DNA from: Mycolicibacterium cosmeticum
GTDB lineage: Bacteria; Actinomycetota; Actinomycetes; Mycobacteriales; Mycobacteriaceae
Length of the DNA: 27,200 nucleotides
Direction: 5' to 3'
Assembly (NCBI RefSeq): GCF_000613185.1
Contig: NZ_CCBB010000004.1
Span: 1 to 27,200 of the forward strand
The notes under the pieces are model-generated. The model was not told the DNA's origin. It did no database searches and saw only the letters and a program-made list of their open reading frames with translations. Shown here one piece after another: positions 4,230-18,572 of the stretch. Position 1 is the stretch's first letter; each line of letters begins with the position of its first letter. Position numbers and translations under genes: made by a program.

Positions 4230-4730
4230 ATGATGGTGGCCATCATGTCGTGGGAAAAGCTGGGCGAGGCTGTGCGCGAGCGGCGCATCGCCCTGGGGTT
4301 GACCCAGGAGCAACTGGCCGATCGCGGTGGTCCCTCGACACCGACCCTTCGCGCGATCGAAAACAACCGGGCGGGTCGTCTGAGCCCCCGGTTGCGCCGA
4401 TCTTTGGAACGGACCTTGCAGTGGTCGGCCGGCAGTGTCGATGAGGTCCTGGCCGGCCAGGACGCCACCGTGCTGGAGCCCGTCACCACCACGGCGATCG
4501 GCCCCGGTTTCTATCTGCTGGTCGACCGGGCACTGTCAGCGGCTCGGGTGGTGATTATCGGCGCGCCGAGTGAGATTGAGACCGCCGAGTGGACTGCCGA
4601 CGTCCACCGCCTGATTCGTGAGGTCAAGGAAGGCTTTTTCGAGCTGGAGCCACGCCTAGAGGCCGCCCAGCGCGACAAGCTCGGTGCCCTGATAGCCCTG
4701 CTGGACCAGCTTTCGACTCCGTCTCGCTGA
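4230..4730 (+). CDS. XRE-family transcriptional regulator (166 aa)
   Basis: Residues about 8-60 (KLGEAVRERRIALGLTQEQLADRGGPSTPTLRAIENNRAG) are a Cro/CI-type helix-turn-helix. The remainder, about 100 residues, is helical and probably for dimerisation. It diverges from the WhiB gene across the CGATAATTA repeats, so control of itself and of whiB is likely. ATG 4230 and ATG 4245 (MSWEKLGEA) lie inside the two arms of the inverted repeat ATGATGG-TGG-CCATCAT (4230-4246), which could hide or control the start. Homologues would most naturally begin at 4245. Confidence 0.85.
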   Translation: MMVAIMSWEKLGEAVRERRIALGLTQEQLADRGGPSTPTLRAIENNRAGRLSPRLRRSLERTLQWSAGSVDEVLAGQDATVLEPVTTTAIGPGFYLLVDRALSAARVVIIGAPSEIETAEWTADVHRLIREVKEGFFELEPRLEAAQRDKLGALIALLDQLSTPSR

Positions 4731-5467: not shown

Positions 5468-5536
5468 TCTTACGTCGGAAGACGTAAAGACGTAATAGCG
5501 TGTTGACGTATGTGCGTCATTGCGCTGTGACGTAAG
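5468..5536. promoter_or_regulatory. Partition-site cluster A: GACGTAA repeats ahead of parA
   Basis: GACGTAA-type units lie at 5481, 5489, 5505 (GACGTAT) and 5529, with the inverted unit TTACGTC at 5470-5476 facing the first across GGAA. The block ends 9 bp before the parA ATG. In type Ib partition systems the small RHH protein binds repeated sites just upstream of parA, which serve both as centromere and as operator. Confidence 0.75.
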
Positions 5537-5544
5537 GTTTGGGA

Positions 5545-6120
5545 ATGCCTACGGTTTCTTTGGTCCATACCAAGGGCGGCGTCGCGAAGACGACGTCGGC
5601 GGTATATCTCGCGACCGCTGCCCAGCGCCGCGGTCGCGATGTCGTACTTATTGATGCCGACCCGCAGGGCTCGGCGCTGGAATGGGCGGCGGCCGCCCAG
5701 GATGACCCGCTGCCGTTTCCGGTGGTGCCGGCACGCCGCCCCCTGGACGTCAGTGGCCACCAGGAGTTGACGATCGTGGACACTCCCCCGGGTACGGCGC
5801 AGGTTATTCAGGAAGCGATCGAGCTGGCCGATTTGGTCGTGGTACCCACAGGGGCCTCACCGCTGGATGTCCGCCGGGTATGGCCAACTTTGGAGATCAC
5901 CGCGCACCGCCCCACGGCGGTGCTACTGACCGGCGTCGATCTGCGGACCCGACTAGCTGACGAAGTGAAGACCCTCCTGGAGGAGGAGGGCGTGCCGGTG
6001 ATCGAAACGCGGATTGTTCGCCGAGAGGGCATCCGCCGGGCGTTCGGGTCTACACCAAACCACCTGTACGGCTATGACGACGTGTTCGACGAGCTGATGG
6101 GGGCATTGGTTCATGTCTGA
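5545..6120 (+). CDS. parA: ParA-family partition ATPase (191 aa)
   Basis: Residues 10-17 (KGGVAKTT) form the deviant Walker A motif of ParA/MinD ATPases. VLIDADPQGSALEW follows as the A' motif, and TIVDTPPG is the Walker B motif. The length and the lack of an N-terminal HTH mark a type Ib ParA, whose ATP-dependent nucleoid binding moves plasmid copies apart. ATG 5545 is preferred; the TTG two codons upstream is an alternative. The gene ends in an ATGTCTGA overlap with the following RHH gene, which is coupled to it. Confidence 0.93.
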   Translation: MPTVSLVHTKGGVAKTTSAVYLATAAQRRGRDVVLIDADPQGSALEWAAAAQDDPLPFPVVPARRPLDVSGHQELTIVDTPPGTAQVIQEAIELADLVVVPTGASPLDVRRVWPTLEITAHRPTAVLLTGVDLRTRLADEVKTLLEEEGVPVIETRIVRREGIRRAFGSTPNHLYGYDDVFDELMGALVHV

Positions 6121-6340
6121 CTTGACTTCGAAAATGGCCGCGCGGGTGAAGACAGAGCCCGCCAAGCGGGCGGCCGAAGCGTTCCGGTCGCCGGCAGATG
6201 ACATGCAGCGGGCCACGGTCTACCTGCCTCGTTCCACTGTTCGCGGCCTCAAGCAAGCCGCCCTCGACGGCGACACCAGCATGAGCAAGATTCTCACTGA
6301 ATTAGCTGATCGGTGGCTTGCCGACAACGTAAAGACGTAA
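6113..6340 (+). CDS. RHH centromere-binding partner of ParA (75 aa)
   Basis: The N-terminal 30 residues are basic and flexible (KMAARVKTEPAKRAAEAF), as expected for the segment that stimulates ParA. Residues about 32-70 (QRATVYLPRSTVRGLKQAAL, then a second helix) give a ribbon-helix-helix fold. The ATG lies inside the 3' end of parA with an 8-nt overlap. The stop codon lies in a 15-bp-arm inverted repeat of the same ACGT-core type as the sites upstream of parA, so the protein probably binds both sides of its own operon. No sequence similarity to classical ParB with KorB/Spo0J domains is visible. Confidence 0.88.
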   Translation: MSDLTSKMAARVKTEPAKRAAEAFRSPADDMQRATVYLPRSTVRGLKQAALDGDTSMSKILTELADRWLADNVKT

Positions 6341-6363
6341 TGACGTCTTTACGTTGTTACGTC
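6324..6363. promoter_or_regulatory. Partition-site cluster B: 15-bp inverted repeat after parA-rhh
   Basis: ACAACGTAAAGACGT (6324-6338) and ACGTCTTTACGTTGT (6343-6357) are perfect arms around AATG, followed by TTACGTC (6357-6363). The left arm overlaps the rhh stop codon. It may be a second centromere block, a terminator or both. Confidence 0.75.
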
Positions 6364-6401: not shown

Positions 6402-6452
6402 GTTCCACTATTGTGGATAGTGCTTTACAGGTGTTCCACTATTGTGTATGGT
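6402..6452 (+). promoter_or_regulatory. Promoter with twin GTTCCACTATTGTG elements ahead of the abi leader
   Basis: GTTCCACTATTGTGGAT (6402-6418) recurs at 6433-6449 with one mismatch, 31 bp apart. TTTACA (6424-6429) and TATGGT (6447-6452), with a 17-bp spacer, make a plausible sigma70-type promoter that contains the second copy. The first copy also contains TCCAC-TATT-GTGGA. The repeats look like regulator sites at a promoter for the RNA and gene that follow. Confidence 0.6.
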
Positions 6453-6458
6453 CGTCAG

Positions 6459-6525
6459 CAGATGCGGTCGGCTCGTCCGGCTGTTCGTGAAGAAGCCTCC
6501 CTCTCCGAGGGGGGCTTCCTTGTTT
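6459..6525 (+). ncRNA. Candidate small structured RNA upstream of the Abi gene
   Basis: A transcript starting near 6459 would fold GTCGG/CCGGC (stem near 6467-6481) and then a 10-bp terminator stem at 6492-6518, ending in CTTGTTTGTCT. This gives an RNA of about 65 nt with its own promoter, ending before the GTG of the Abi gene at 6546. Abi_2/AbiF-type genes are known to be accompanied by a conserved upstream RNA, the abiF RNA motif, and the position here matches. I have not been able to compare it with the published consensus structure. Confidence 0.5.
6492..6525 (+). terminator. Intrinsic terminator between promoter and Abi start
   Basis: GAAGCCTCCC (6492-6501) pairs with GGGGGGCTTC (6509-6518) with one G-U pair and a 7-nt loop, followed by CTTGTTTGTC. 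It would end a short RNA and leave read-through to express the gene at 6546. Confidence 0.7.
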
Positions 6526-6545
6526 GTCTGGCACAGTAACCAGTT

Positions 6546-7316
6546 GTGTCGGTGAATCCTGCGGAGATCTTCAAGAGCCTGCACCCCTCACGGCTGGCGC
6601 ATTATCGGTCGCTTTCTGGCGGTCAAGACGCTGATGCTTTGGCGCTATATGAGTGGAACATTGAGGTCGCCGCAGCTCTGCAGGACCCGTTGGGAATCGC
6701 CGAGGTAGCAGTGCGGCATGCCATCGACGTGCAGCTGTGCACGTGGTCGCAGCAGCATGTGGGTTCGCCTGAATGGATCAATCATGTTGCCGGGATTCCG
6801 TACCTGTCGGGACCGAACGTGTTCAGCACGACTCGCCATAACCTCTACAAGGCGGCTGACCAGTCCCGCCGGGCTCGGCCGGCCAACCATCCCCGTCACG
6901 GCGGTGCGATCACTCACGACGATCTGGTTGCGCACGTTATGTTCGGTACCTGGGCGAACCTACTGCCGGAGAAGTTCAACGCGGCGTGGTTGGACCCTAA
7001 TGGCCACCCCGTGCAAAACCAGGTGAACCTCCAAGCTCGGCGAGACCTGTGGCGTAACTGTCTGCAGGGGGGATTTCCGCACGTACAGCGCGACCCGCGC
7101 GGGTACGGCACCGGCAATAAGGTTCGCGATTTGCGGAAACTGAGAAACCGGGTGTCACACATGGACTCGCTGCTCTACGTCGATGTCCGTCATCAGCACG
7201 ACCGGGTTCTACTACCGCTGTTGAACTCAATTAGCCACAACCTGCGAGATTGGGTCGCGGGACGAAGCAAGGTACACACAGTGTTGGCGCAGCGGCCGGC
7301 CGCCGGTGCACCATGA
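6546..7316 (+). CDS. Abi-family protein with HEPN motif (256 aa)
   Basis: The N-terminal part (HPSRLAHYRSLSGG, then DALALYEWNIEVAAAL and EVAVRHAID, about residues 13-60) and the block VMFGTWANLLPEKF (131-144) are typical of Abi_2/AbiD-AbiF-type abortive infection proteins. LRNRVSH (R200 to H205) is an Rx4H motif of HEPN ribonucleases, near the C-terminus as in the family. Such proteins are thought to cut RNA and stop growth on phage infection. GTG 6546 is the best start and no ATG is available nearby. The gene has an upstream structured leader and is bracketed by partition-type repeats (6324-6363 and 7315-7447), so it is part of the same plasmid maintenance region. The defence role is inferred from the family. 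Confidence 0.8.
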   Translation: MSVNPAEIFKSLHPSRLAHYRSLSGGQDADALALYEWNIEVAAALQDPLGIAEVAVRHAIDVQLCTWSQQHVGSPEWINHVAGIPYLSGPNVFSTTRHNLYKAADQSRRARPANHPRHGGAITHDDLVAHVMFGTWANLLPEKFNAAWLDPNGHPVQNQVNLQARRDLWRNCLQGGFPHVQRDPRGYGTGNKVRDLRKLRNRVSHMDSLLYVDVRHQHDRVLLPLLNSISHNLRDWVAGRSKVHTVLAQRPAAGAP

Positions 7317-7352
7317 CGTATAGGCGGCTTTACGTCATAACGTAATTACGTT
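7315..7352. promoter_or_regulatory. Partition-site cluster C: ACGT-core repeats after the abi gene
   Basis: GACGTA (7315-7320) overlaps the Abi stop codon; TTTACGTC (7329-7336) and the 14-bp perfect palindrome AACGTAATTACGTT (7339-7352) follow. They match the motif before parA. Confidence 0.7.
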
Positions 7353-7413
7353 TATACGTTTGGACTGGCCAGGGCGCCCGCCGAGCTGACGTTCCGAGCT
7401 AGCACGTGTTCGC

Positions 7414-7447
7414 AAAACGTAATGACGTATATACGTCATTACGTTTT
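7414..7447. promoter_or_regulatory. Partition-site cluster D: 34-bp perfect palindrome
   Basis: The 34 bases are a perfect palindrome centred between 7430 and 7431. The left half is AAAACGTAATGACGTAT, and the units ACGTAAT/GACGTAT/TACGTC are those of clusters A-C. It lies just downstream (minus strand) of the ImmA-type gene ending at 7461, so it may also act as a transcription stop for both convergent units. Confidence 0.85.
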
Positions 7448-7460
7448 TAAACCCTGCCGC

Positions 7461-8342
7461 TCATTCGTGAGCCAGTCGAACACGGATAGGACGCAGGAGA
7501 CGCCGGCGCTCGGACTTGACCCAGAGCATCATGATCTCCGCGTAGCCGGTGTTCATCGTCTCCACTCGGACGTTGACCCGAACGCCCGCCAGATCAACCA
7601 TGGGCACCTCACCGAGCCCGTGCTCGATCGCCGCCAGGAAGGGGTAGGCCGAGGGGTGCAGGCGTCGCGGGTATCGCGTGTTTCCGAAGCGCTCCACCCA
7701 CTTCGGGGAGCGAGGTGTTTCCTGACGGTCGTAGCTGCCGTCGCTGTTGGGCATCTTGCTCAGGCACAGGACATGGACGGCGTCCTGGTGCGTTTCGGCG
7801 TAGCGCCGAAACGCCGCCCGAAGAGACGATCCGTAGCGTTGGGCGAGGTGGGTCACGCTGGCGACGCCGATCTCCAAGCTTCTGGCGTCGTTGGTGAATC
7901 CATGTCGCTGAAACAGCAGCTCAGCGGCACCCTGATTGGCTTCCTGCTCGAAGAGTCGGTTGGTTGAAGGACTTAACGTCTCTTCGTTGTCGGTGTGGAC
8001 GAGCTGCTGCTGCCAGGGCAGCAGGTCGTGGGTGACTTCATGGAGTTTGACGAAGTTCTTGCGTACCTCGTGGGTGACCAGCTCGCTGACGTGAACTGTG
8101 CGCTCACGACGGTCCAGCGCGCCGCGCAGGCCCCGGAATCCGCGGCGAACGAGATCGCGCACCGCCTTGGGCATCGTGGCGAGCACCCCTTCGTCGAGGG
8201 TGAAGTCATCGGCCTCCAGAAGGCCGCGCGCCGACACGATGTCGTCCACCGGCGTGGGGTACCGGCCGTAGGCATCAGCGGCCTTGAGCAGCGCGTGAGT
8301 GCGTTGCTCGATGTCCTGGGCGCTGTCAAGGTCCTCAAGCAT
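7461..8342 (-). CDS. ImmA/IrrE-type metallopeptidase (293 aa)
   Basis: HEVTH (residues 101-105) within KNFVKLHEVTHDLLPWQ is the zinc-binding HExxH motif, and EQEANQGAAELLF (132-144) supplies the third ligand and the conserved ExEAN helix of the ImmA/IrrE (DUF955) family. These enzymes cleave or inactivate their partner XRE repressor in response to stress, derepressing a regulon; in ICEBs1 the pair controls transfer. The ATG overlaps the end of the upstream XRE gene by 8 nt (ATGCTTGA), so the two are coupled. The C-terminal 130 residues are longer than in short ImmA proteins and are not recognised. Confidence 0.88.
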   Translation of the reverse strand: MLEDLDSAQDIEQRTHALLKAADAYGRYPTPVDDIVSARGLLEADDFTLDEGVLATMPKAVRDLVRRGFRGLRGALDRRERTVHVSELVTHEVRKNFVKLHEVTHDLLPWQQQLVHTDNEETLSPSTNRLFEQEANQGAAELLFQRHGFTNDARSLEIGVASVTHLAQRYGSSLRAAFRRYAETHQDAVHVLCLSKMPNSDGSYDRQETPRSPKWVERFGNTRYPRRLHPSAYPFLAAIEHGLGEVPMVDLAGVRVNVRVETMNTGYAEIMMLWVKSERRRLLRPIRVRLAHE

Positions 8343-8691
8343 TTCGCTGCCGCTGCTTGTGTCGTAAGAGCTGGAGGTACGTGGTGAGGGCTTCCGCCTC
8401 CTCCGCGGTGAGTCCCTCGGAACTCAGCGCGTGGGCCAGGGTGTTGCCGTGCGTCGTGCCACCTGGCACGACGTATCCGGCGCGACGCATCAGTTCGAGA
8501 TAGTCCGCGCCCAGCGTTTCGGCCAGACCGTAGAGCACCTTCGGCGATGGGCTCTTGACCTCGCCGCGTTCGAGTTTCTGCAGGTAGGCGGTACTGATCC
8601 CGGACGGCTCGGCCACGGCTTTCAACGTCTTCCCCGAGAACTCGCGAAGCTCGCGCAGGGTGGGGCCGAGGGAAGCGTTGTCGGTGGTCAT
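8335..8691 (-). CDS. XRE-family repressor paired with the ImmA-type peptidase (118 aa)
   Basis: From ATG 8691 (MTTDNASLGPTLRELREF) residues 8-60 form a Cro/CI helix-turn-helix (LKAVAEPSGISTAYLQKLERGEVKSPSPKVLYGLAETL). A short C-terminal helical tail follows. The longer frame to 8820 has no supporting ribosome site and crosses the divergent promoter, so I do not use it. It diverges from the 67-aa gene at 8813 and most likely represses itself and that gene. Confidence 0.88.
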   Translation of the reverse strand: MTTDNASLGPTLRELREFSGKTLKAVAEPSGISTAYLQKLERGEVKSPSPKVLYGLAETLGADYLELMRRAGYVVPGGTTHGNTLAHALSSEGLTAEEAEALTTYLQLLRHKQRQRNA

Positions 8692-8701
8692 AGCACCATC
8701 G

Positions 8702-8812
8702 TAGGCGGCTTTACACGATAGTAGAAACATCTGATACACTAAAGTAGAAAGGCATTTACCAAAGTGTTCGGCTCCACTCCACGGGCCGGACGCACGAGAA
8801 AGGACATCGTCA
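8702..8812. promoter_or_regulatory. Divergent promoter region of the XRE/ImmA locus
   Basis: AGTAGAAA occurs at 8720-8727 and 8743-8750, 23 bp apart, within an A+T-rich block that also has TTTACA (8710) and TACACT (8735). These are probable XRE sites and promoter elements for both directions. Confidence 0.55.
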
Positions 8813-9016
8813 ATGGCCAAGGGACATCACCGCAGCGCGGCCACCGGTCGCTACGTCAAGGCGTCCACCGCGGCGCGCAACCCCAGGACCACGGTCACCG
8901 AACGGGGCGCCAACCACAGCAGTGGGACCCATCACCGCAGCGCCATCACCGGCAAGTTCGTGAAGGCCTCCACCGCTGCACGGCACCCCAACACCACGGT
9001 CACCGAACGCGGCTGA
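8813..9016 (+). CDS. Basic protein with internal duplication (67 aa)
   Basis: Residues 5-32 (HHRSAATGRYVKASTAARNP and TTVTERG) and residues 40-67 are the same 28-residue unit with 23 identities, joined by ANHSSGT. The protein is rich in H, K, R, S and T and lacks hydrophobic or catalytic motifs. The unit resembles small basic proteins common in actinobacterial genomes and phages; nucleic-acid binding is plausible but unproven. ATG 8813 has AAAGGAC upstream. It is the first gene of a plus-strand unit with the zinc-ribbon gene and is probably under the XRE repressor. Confidence 0.8.
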   Translation: MAKGHHRSAATGRYVKASTAARNPRTTVTERGANHSSGTHHRSAITGKFVKASTAARHPNTTVTERG

Positions 9017-17765: not shown

Positions 17766-17793
17766 GTATGACACTAATTCACATTCGTCATAC
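17766..17793. promoter_or_regulatory. GTATGAC/GTCATAC inverted repeat ahead of the YfbU gene
   Basis: Seven-bp arms GTATGAC (17766-17772) and GTCATAC (17787-17793), 28 bp overall and 24 bp from the start codon. A probable autoregulatory site for the RHH domain of the next gene. Confidence 0.6.
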
Positions 17794-17816
17794 GTCACTA
17801 CGTTAAGGAGAGCGGT

Positions 17817-18572
17817 ATGGCCGTCTTGAATATCCGAGTCGATGATCAGGTCCGCGATGAACTCAAGGACATGGCCGACGCGGAGGGTGTCACCGTCAGC
17901 GAGTACGTCCGCGATCTGCTCATGGCCGCGCTCGTCCCTGGGTATGAGTCCAAAGAGGACCACGGCGACCTACCGGCGCCGGAGACGATGCGGATTGCCG
18001 ATCGGCAGGTGCTCTCCCTGCTTCACCGCATCCTCGCGCGCGTGCTGCCCGAGGACAACGACGACGTGGACGGAGACGCCGACTATCAGCTGGGGCGGGC
18101 GCGGGTGATCGAGGCGGGCTACACCGGGGAGTACTGGCGCGAAGTCGCCGGGTTCAACCCCGAGCTGTCGAAGCGTGACTGCGGCCGCGTCCTGGACATC
18201 CTCGACATGTTCCGCATCATCACCTTCAGCATCCGGCGGCTGGAGAAAGACGGGACCACCGTCGACGAGGACCTCAAGTACGAGCTGGAATTTAAGGGCT
18301 TCGACGGCAACGACGGACTCGAAAACCACATGGCCCGCTACGTCGAGTTCCTCATGAGCGACGGCCGGTGGGCTGAACTGCACGAACAGTGGAAGAGCAA
18401 CGACGAAGGGAACTCCCACGCCCTCATGCTCGACACCTACATACGCATGGTTGCCGAACACCGCCGCATCAAGGCCAGCCGCGACCGCGGATTCCACCGA
18501 GAGGACTACCTGCTGTCCCTCGACGAGCTGCAGCAGATTGCAGACGCTCGCCACCCGTCGCGCCGCGGCTAG
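17817..18572 (+). CDS. RHH-YfbU family protein (251 aa)
   Basis: Residues 1-38 (MAVLNIRVDDQVRDELKDMA, then VTVSEYVRDLLMAAL) form a ribbon-helix-helix domain, and residues about 55-245 match the YfbU family (the blocks EVAGFNPELSKRDCGRVLDI and DMFRIITFSIRRL). The start has AAGGAGAGCGGT upstream. E. coli YfbU has been linked to a death pathway in older reports; I cannot say what it does here. The fusion of a DNA-binding domain suggests a self-regulated system, as in antitoxins. No partner gene is next to it. Confidence 0.85.
   Translation: MAVLNIRVDDQVRDELKDMADAEGVTVSEYVRDLLMAALVPGYESKEDHGDLPAPETMRIADRQVLSLLHRILARVLPEDNDDVDGDADYQLGRARVIEAGYTGEYWREVAGFNPELSKRDCGRVLDILDMFRIITFSIRRLEKDGTTVDEDLKYELEFKGFDGNDGLENHMARYVEFLMSDGRWAELHEQWKSNDEGNSHALMLDTYIRMVAEHRRIKASRDRGFHREDYLLSLDELQQIADARHPSRRG

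Follow-up and report, generated by a model that had tools for sequence, protein, structure and literature searches.

Gene Organization of the Region Around the HEPN Gene

We analyzed a stretch of 27,200 nucleotides from Mycolicibacterium cosmeticum (the window; contig C4 of a 6.46 Mb genome), in which a HEPN gene, preceded by a predicted small RNA gene, lies next to a partition locus. From position 5545 onward the order is parA (5545–6120, plus strand), a small ribbon-helix-helix (RHH)-like gene in the parB position (6113–6340, plus strand), an array of ACGT repeats, a promoter with two 14-bp repeats, two hairpins and the HEPN gene itself (6546–7316, plus strand), which starts with GTG and encodes a PD-T4-5-like protein of 256 amino acids with an AbiF-like fold. 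On the 3′ side of the HEPN gene follow two further ACGT arrays and, on the opposite strand, a peptidase gene and a helix-turn-helix (HTH) gene. The assignment of parA is based on Pfam and on synteny with relatives, that of the small gene on synteny and on a match to RHH_1 that falls below the cut-off (E 0.0077).

The two ends of the window share a repeat of 193 bp, which makes a circular replicon of 27,007 bp probable. The nearest plasmid relatives of the region are found in Mycolicibacterium and Mycobacteroides (together with the window, the plasmid clade), and a contig of Mycolicibacterium sp. J2 (L016) is identical to the window across all 8,768 bp fetched. A first-pass annotation of the sequence had described an Abi-type HEPN gene with its own promoter, twin operators, small structured RNA and terminator, and had read these as an RNA-guarded toxin module tied to partition. 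The observation is confirmed here, and the interpretation is partly supported.

The HEPN Protein Has an AbiF-Type Fold

The window protein contains the motif R200-N-R-V-S-H205 (7143–7160), previously noted as Rx4H, and R200, N201 and H205 are invariant in an alignment of 56 sequences, window included (A10, covering 56 of the 64 listed proteins). Structural comparison assigns it the AbiF-type fold with an RNxxxH active site, at 13–14% identity to PbAbiF in the structural alignments. The proposed Abi_2/AbiF identity therefore holds for the fold but not for the Pfam family, as a search of the window protein returned no Pfam family at E ≤ 1, Abi_2 (PF07751) included. Abi_2 is matched at E ≤ 0.01 by 20 of the 44 sequences in a second alignment (A11; best E 3.4e-7). 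The PADLOC PD-T4-5 profile matches residues 4–208 of the window protein (E 8.4e-13), as well as all 44 sequences scanned.

In Mycolicibacterium iranicum (L022, 4001–4766), the HEPN gene is split into two frames and the RNA leader is still conserved.

A Conserved Predicted RNA Gene Precedes the HEPN Gene in the Plasmid Clade

The partner RNA gene (6459–6527, plus strand; approximately 66–69 nt) is supported by its fold, by covariation, by the covariance models R2 and R3 described below and by its constraint relative to fourfold degenerate sites. This 69-nt stretch has a folding z-score of −3.67, and none of 200 shuffled sequences was equally stable. It consists of the short 5′ hairpin seen previously (6464–6471/6477–6484), a linker containing UGAAG, and a terminator-like hairpin (6492–6503/6507–6518). 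The latter had been reported as a 10-bp terminator stem; its terminator-like character stands, but the stem has 12 pairs, and the tail that follows, CTTGTTTGTC, is T-rich (U-rich in the RNA) to a moderate degree only.

Upstream lies the predicted promoter of the first-pass annotation, TTTACA (6424–6429) and TATGGT (6447–6452) at a spacing of 17 nt, with the −10 element beginning 13 nt ahead of the modelled 5′ end of the RNA. It is the sole promoter-like site between 5300 and 7500; as 0.8 such sites are expected in shuffled sequences, the pattern by itself is not significant. The position of the −10 element is kept among relatives, and we infer that the RNA is transcribed from this promoter.

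Between the window and its three nearest relatives, the RNA is identical at 66/70, 68/69 and 67/69 positions, compared with 60, 57 and 56% at the fourfold degenerate sites of the HEPN gene and 38–40 of the 70 nt upstream of the RNA. Across ten members of the clade the stems pair in 235 of 240 cells (97.9%), against 45–61% in slid controls. Six of the 24 pairs have changed on both sides, a number reached by 6 of 500 shuffles; the number of pair types in these ten members is not above that of shuffles, 262 of 500 of which reach it. The small structured RNA proposed earlier is thus found, at the predicted length, as a conserved and covarying leader RNA with its own predicted promoter and terminator.

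Related RNAs Adjoin HEPN Genes Outside the Plasmid Clade

A terminator-like hairpin on either strand within approximately 220 nt upstream was found in 55 of 73 leaders (near-copies included); among 2000 stretches drawn at random from these loci, 177 had one. A covariance model built from ten Rhodococcus-type RNAs (R1) was run, like the later models R2 and R3, on 82 of the 89 sources (loci L001–L088 and the window; 690,712 bases for R1). The sources omitted were L001, L004, L016, L023, L031, L047 and L058, all except L058 being copies or near-copies, and near-copies also occur among the loci (L042/L043/L045; L011/L027/L032/L034). At E ≤ 0.004, R1 gave 40 matches, ten of them the training set; the other 30 all lie within 400 nt of a HEPN gene. 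In these 40 RNAs, both sides have changed in 21 of the 23 pairs (170 cells compared with 45.9 in shuffles), a count that leans towards structure because the alignment was fitted to it.

The hairpins might instead be ordinary terminators, linked to HEPN genes merely because terminators are common. Among 200 genomes of the order, R2, a model made from the 40 R1 RNAs, gave five matches at E ≤ 1e-4, and the three weaker ones are indeed terminator-like hairpins without a HEPN gene nearby. The two strongest lie beside a HEPN gene. Against this explanation, every new R1 match adjoins the HEPN gene; the 5′ hairpin and the lower stem, which are dispensable for termination, covary; and a −10 box is in register, as 62 of 65 RNAs are preceded by a TANNNT that begins 11–17 nt ahead of them (at −12 or −13 in the ten plasmid-clade RNAs), within a search range set after the leaders had been seen. 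We therefore regard this explanation as highly improbable.

In the search with R2 at E ≤ 0.006, the RNA adjoins the HEPN gene in 54 of 70 non-clade loci, 38 of these 54 having supplied training sequences. It is located upstream and divergent in 38 (including L049, assigned by hand), upstream and codirectional in one (L039), and downstream and convergent in 15. Among the plus-strand matches, the two in L024 and L008 mirror the same hairpin, and one in L084 (7364–7437) lies approximately 2.7 kb off. R2 was additionally run on 20 further same-genus loci (L098–L117), many of them remote or partial homologues; L098, L099 and L100 have an adjacent match, upstream and divergent in each case, and the other 17 have none at E ≤ 1.

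The three placements require three changes on a protein tree of 65 rows, where the plasmid clade acquired its codirectional order independently of L039. Six rows of the tree are without a placement label; the labels of L013, L019, L047, L051, L063, L066 and L079 rest on inspected leaders, on weaker matches or on a near-copy; and the rows of L041, L056, L068, L069, L080, L082, L083 and L087 are one-frame translations over the match span with X at stops. The place of L087 is unsure because its branch is very long.

The shifting position of the RNA around its gene argues for action in trans. In the plasmid clade, where the terminator-like hairpin sits between promoter and gene, the leader could be pictured as a cis-acting attenuator only, a 5′ untranslated region whose terminator limits the nuclease mRNA and which has no separate role. 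Outside the clade, however, the RNA lies on the opposite strand, upstream or downstream, in 53 of the 54 loci where it adjoins the gene, and it nearly always has its own −10 box. A leader acting in cis could not tolerate this, and we consider a purely cis-acting leader unlikely.

R2, which had no plasmid-clade RNA in its training set, ranks the window RNA first in the window, at only 11.2 bits (E 0.15); on the leaders of nine relatives it gives 10.8–13.5 bits, the leader being the best match of its locus in four. The converse search is the stronger of the two: R3, built only from plasmid-clade RNAs, recovers RNAs located upstream and divergent in L049 (E 4.4e-6), L075, L076, L068, L051 and L066 (E 0.006), in a list that also holds three non-adjacent matches with E 0.002–0.003 (L028, L005, L007) and mirror images of hairpins. 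Taken together, the R3 search, the architecture and the promoter register make it very likely that the plasmid-clade RNA and the RNAs elsewhere form one RNA family. This family is not abiF, the motif expected at the outset: neither the window nor any of 16 relatives reached the gathering threshold of Rfam abiF (RF03085), and the leaders of L024, L042 and the window gave no match to it at E ≤ 10. On the terms of the first-pass annotation, the missing abiF match would refute the proposal of an RNA partner; these terms were too narrow, as the RNA is of another family.

The weak R3 matches in the two Mycobacteroides abscessus plasmids (L005, 11–79; L007, 158–219) are additional ones, away from the HEPN gene. 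In L026 (4700–4955) and L056 (4704–5155), the RNA is present as two separate copies downstream of the HEPN gene, an arrangement seen near these loci only.

The HEPN Gene Is Located Within a Partition Locus

ACGT repeats precede parA (5482–5517), an 8-bp phased array lies between the parB-position gene and the RNA gene (6327–6362), and two more phased arrays are located directly 3′ of the HEPN gene (7332–7359 and 7417–7444). The sequence ACGTNNNNACGT occurs 12 times in the window, where 0.44 are expected; 11 copies surround parA and the HEPN gene and one lies just before 17817. That the same repeats enclose both genes, as claimed earlier, is therefore borne out, and the tie to partition is backed by synteny as well as by the arrays.

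In each of the 14 loci of the plasmid clade that were examined, parA and a small gene precede the HEPN gene. Both genes have clear matches in the window and 10 others (L002, L003, L016–L023); in L005–L007, parA is only 26–30% identical and the small gene is unmatched. Of 10 loci scanned, 9 have phased ACGT arrays in the gap between the parB-position gene and the HEPN gene. On the 3′ side, arrays begin within approximately 110 nt of the HEPN gene in 7 of the 8 loci of Mycolicibacterium type; both Mycobacteroides loci scanned lack them there.

The placement of the HEPN–RNA pair in the partition locus argues for a role in plasmid maintenance. The module could also be mainly an anti-phage abortive infection system that resides on the plasmid by chance, its partition setting being incidental. 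PD-T4-5, described as distantly related to AbiF/D, conferred Abi defence on E. coli (PMC9519451), CapHP pairs, discussed below, govern adjacent immune operons (PMC13373217), and more distant homologues, such as that of L010 on a mycobacterial plasmid, need not adjoin parA. Against an incidental setting stand the constant gene order in the clade, kept even where parA is only 26–30% identical, and the arrays flanking the gene in most of its loci. We hold a mainly anti-phage role to be a serious possibility, though not the favoured one; defence and addiction are compatible and do not exclude each other.

Putative CapH-Type Operators Are Shared With a Neighbouring capH–capP-Like Pair

Convergent with the HEPN gene lies a capP-like metallopeptidase gene of the M78/ImmA family (7461–8342, minus strand; PADLOC capP E 2.9e-17, Pfam Peptidase_M78 E 4.6e-6), followed by a capH-like HTH repressor gene (8335–8691, minus strand), for which the ATG start was used (a longer reading frame reaches 8820). 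The latter was identified through relatives and a weak match to PADLOC capH (E 1.9e-6), with HTH_VI scoring better (3.1e-8); a second HTH gene, at 4230, likewise matches capH (5.2e-6). PADLOC thus places an HTH repressor gene beside an M78 peptidase gene.

The two perfect copies of the 14-bp GTTCCACTATTGTG noted previously (6402–6415 and 6433–6446) lie within a 31-nt direct repeat of 84% identity. They contain two putative CapH-type operators, TTCCACTATTGTG, at the RNA–HEPN promoter (6403–6415 and 6434–6446, plus strand), the second within the −35/−10 spacer. Two sites of the same consensus are present at the capH promoter (8714–8726 and 8737–8749, minus strand). The repeats are therefore real but not, as first proposed, operators of the HEPN gene alone: they are of CapH type and common to the capH promoter.

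Six sites from the capH promoters of the window, M. gilvum and L022, which are not independent as the capH genes are 96–99% identical, gave the consensus TTCYACTWTHGTG. Perfect sites in the window number four, two at each of the two promoters; 116 other loci (789,338 bases) and 300 Markov sequences contain none. The entire M. gilvum plasmid has the capH pair of sites only, and among the plasmids examined operators occur at the HEPN promoter in the window plasmid only. Shared operators at the repressor's own and at a target promoter are thus found by sequence, and CapH may bind them.

CapH is reported to be a repressor and CapP a protease that cleaves CapH once bound to single-stranded DNA (ssDNA) (PMC13373217). 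The CapH sites at the RNA–HEPN promoter argue for induction upon DNA damage, and the RNA–HEPN pair is probably under a DNA-damage switch. As in known CapH/CapP systems, an HTH repressor and an M78 peptidase adjoin a defence-type gene and share operators, but the putative CapH/CapP pair in the window is convergent with its presumed target gene and approximately 1.4 kb from the target promoter.

In the M. gilvum plasmid (L002, 2490–3820), two genes without a Pfam or PADLOC match separate the HEPN gene from capP; they are not there in the window.

Proposed Mechanism and Relation to Known Systems

Drawing on the fold, RNA conservation, covariation, placements, operator sharing and synteny computed here, we consider it likely that the locus is a two-part plasmid module of an AbiF-fold, PD-T4-5-like HEPN ribonuclease and a separate partner RNA of approximately 66 nt. 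Transcripts from 6424–6452 would mostly end at the hairpin 6492–6518 and yield the RNA, with occasional read-through producing the nuclease mRNA. The RNA would bind the nuclease and hold it inactive, an arrangement reported for AbiF of C. difficile and PbAbiF; when it is lost or outrun, upon plasmid loss or phage infection, the nuclease would cut RNA and arrest the cell. Located between partition arrays, the cassette would let active partition and addiction be inherited jointly. DNA damage would lead CapP to cleave CapH, and given the operators in the RNA–HEPN promoter this should raise its transcription.

The closest parallels are AbiF_Cd-RCd22 of a Clostridioides difficile prophage and PbAbiF-AbiFr (PDB 8VZ6), which share with the window an AbiD/F-type HEPN protein with RNxxxH, a small RNA beside the gene and a similar overall fold; in AbiF_Cd the RNA also has a promoter to itself and is separated from the gene by a terminator. 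In AbiF_Cd, most transcripts stop before the gene, and the RNA binds the protein and neutralizes its toxicity in cis and in trans (PMC12373285); in PbAbiF, the RNA keeps the nuclease inhibited (PMC12737573). By analogy with AbiF_Cd we infer an RNA-neutralized HEPN ribonuclease. The window differs in that RF03085 fails to match its RNA, which has one structured unit instead of two abiF motifs, in its low identity to PbAbiF, and in its setting on an actinobacterial plasmid.

AbiD/F HEPN proteins group in one clade with the HEPN domains of ancestral Cas13 (PMC12165695), which would fit an RNA that activates or guides target recognition and cutting by the HEPN protein, with no antitoxin role. No variable guide-like segment is evident, the changes within the plasmid clade falling mainly in stems and hairpin loops, and the RNA inhibits in both AbiF systems cited above; an activating or guiding RNA thus appears rather improbable.

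PD-T4-5, a plasmid-borne E. coli anti-phage gene, shares its PADLOC profile (309 long, vs. 256 amino acids) with the window protein; the excerpts of its description consulted mention no RNA partner.

In ToxIN-like type III toxin-antitoxin systems, the toxin is an RNase, the RNA partner lies upstream and a terminator separates the two. The window shares this layout, but its protein is of the HEPN and not the ToxN fold, and a search of 6459–6527 for a tandem repeat unit, as in type III RNA antitoxins, found none, leaving a single RNA unit.

An AbiF-type HEPN protein with an RNA is already known as a kind. In the excerpts of the open-licence literature consulted, we found no account of this RNA family, its shifting placement, its nesting in a partition locus or the capture by CapH; the covariance models that Zilberzwige-Tal et al. 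(2025; cited in PMC12804078) present for AbiF RNAs may already cover part of these findings. More tentatively, and with slightly less than even confidence, the loci may represent a widespread actinobacterial branch of AbiF-type HEPN toxins with its own RNA antitoxin family outside Rfam 15, which switched side and strand several times, was built into the partition locus in these mycobacterial plasmids and was wired to a CapH/CapP DNA-damage sensor in one.

Cas13 is considered to descend from AbiF and its RNA (PMC12737573; PMC12165695), yet RF03085 does not reach these PD-T4-5-like HEPN genes, for whose annotation a covariance model is now available. That this second RNA family occupies changing positions around its gene speaks for a partner that acts in trans. 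The window also provides an example, open to testing, of a toxin module anchored at a plasmid's partition site and taken over by a switch that responds to DNA damage, which, if true, would join segregation, addiction and damage-induced arrest within approximately 3 kb.

Additional Features of the Window

A reading frame of 67 amino acids (8813–9016) adjoins the capH promoter; it is built of two similar repeats of approximately 28 residues and has no Pfam match at E ≤ 0.1. Elsewhere in the window, an RHH-YfbU gene (17792–18572) has a partition-type palindrome, ACGTCACTACGT, immediately before its start. Copies with 97% identity are present on the HEPN-bearing contigs of L019 and L020, and a Corynebacterium plasmid (L014) has a 34% relative as the next feature downstream of its HEPN gene.
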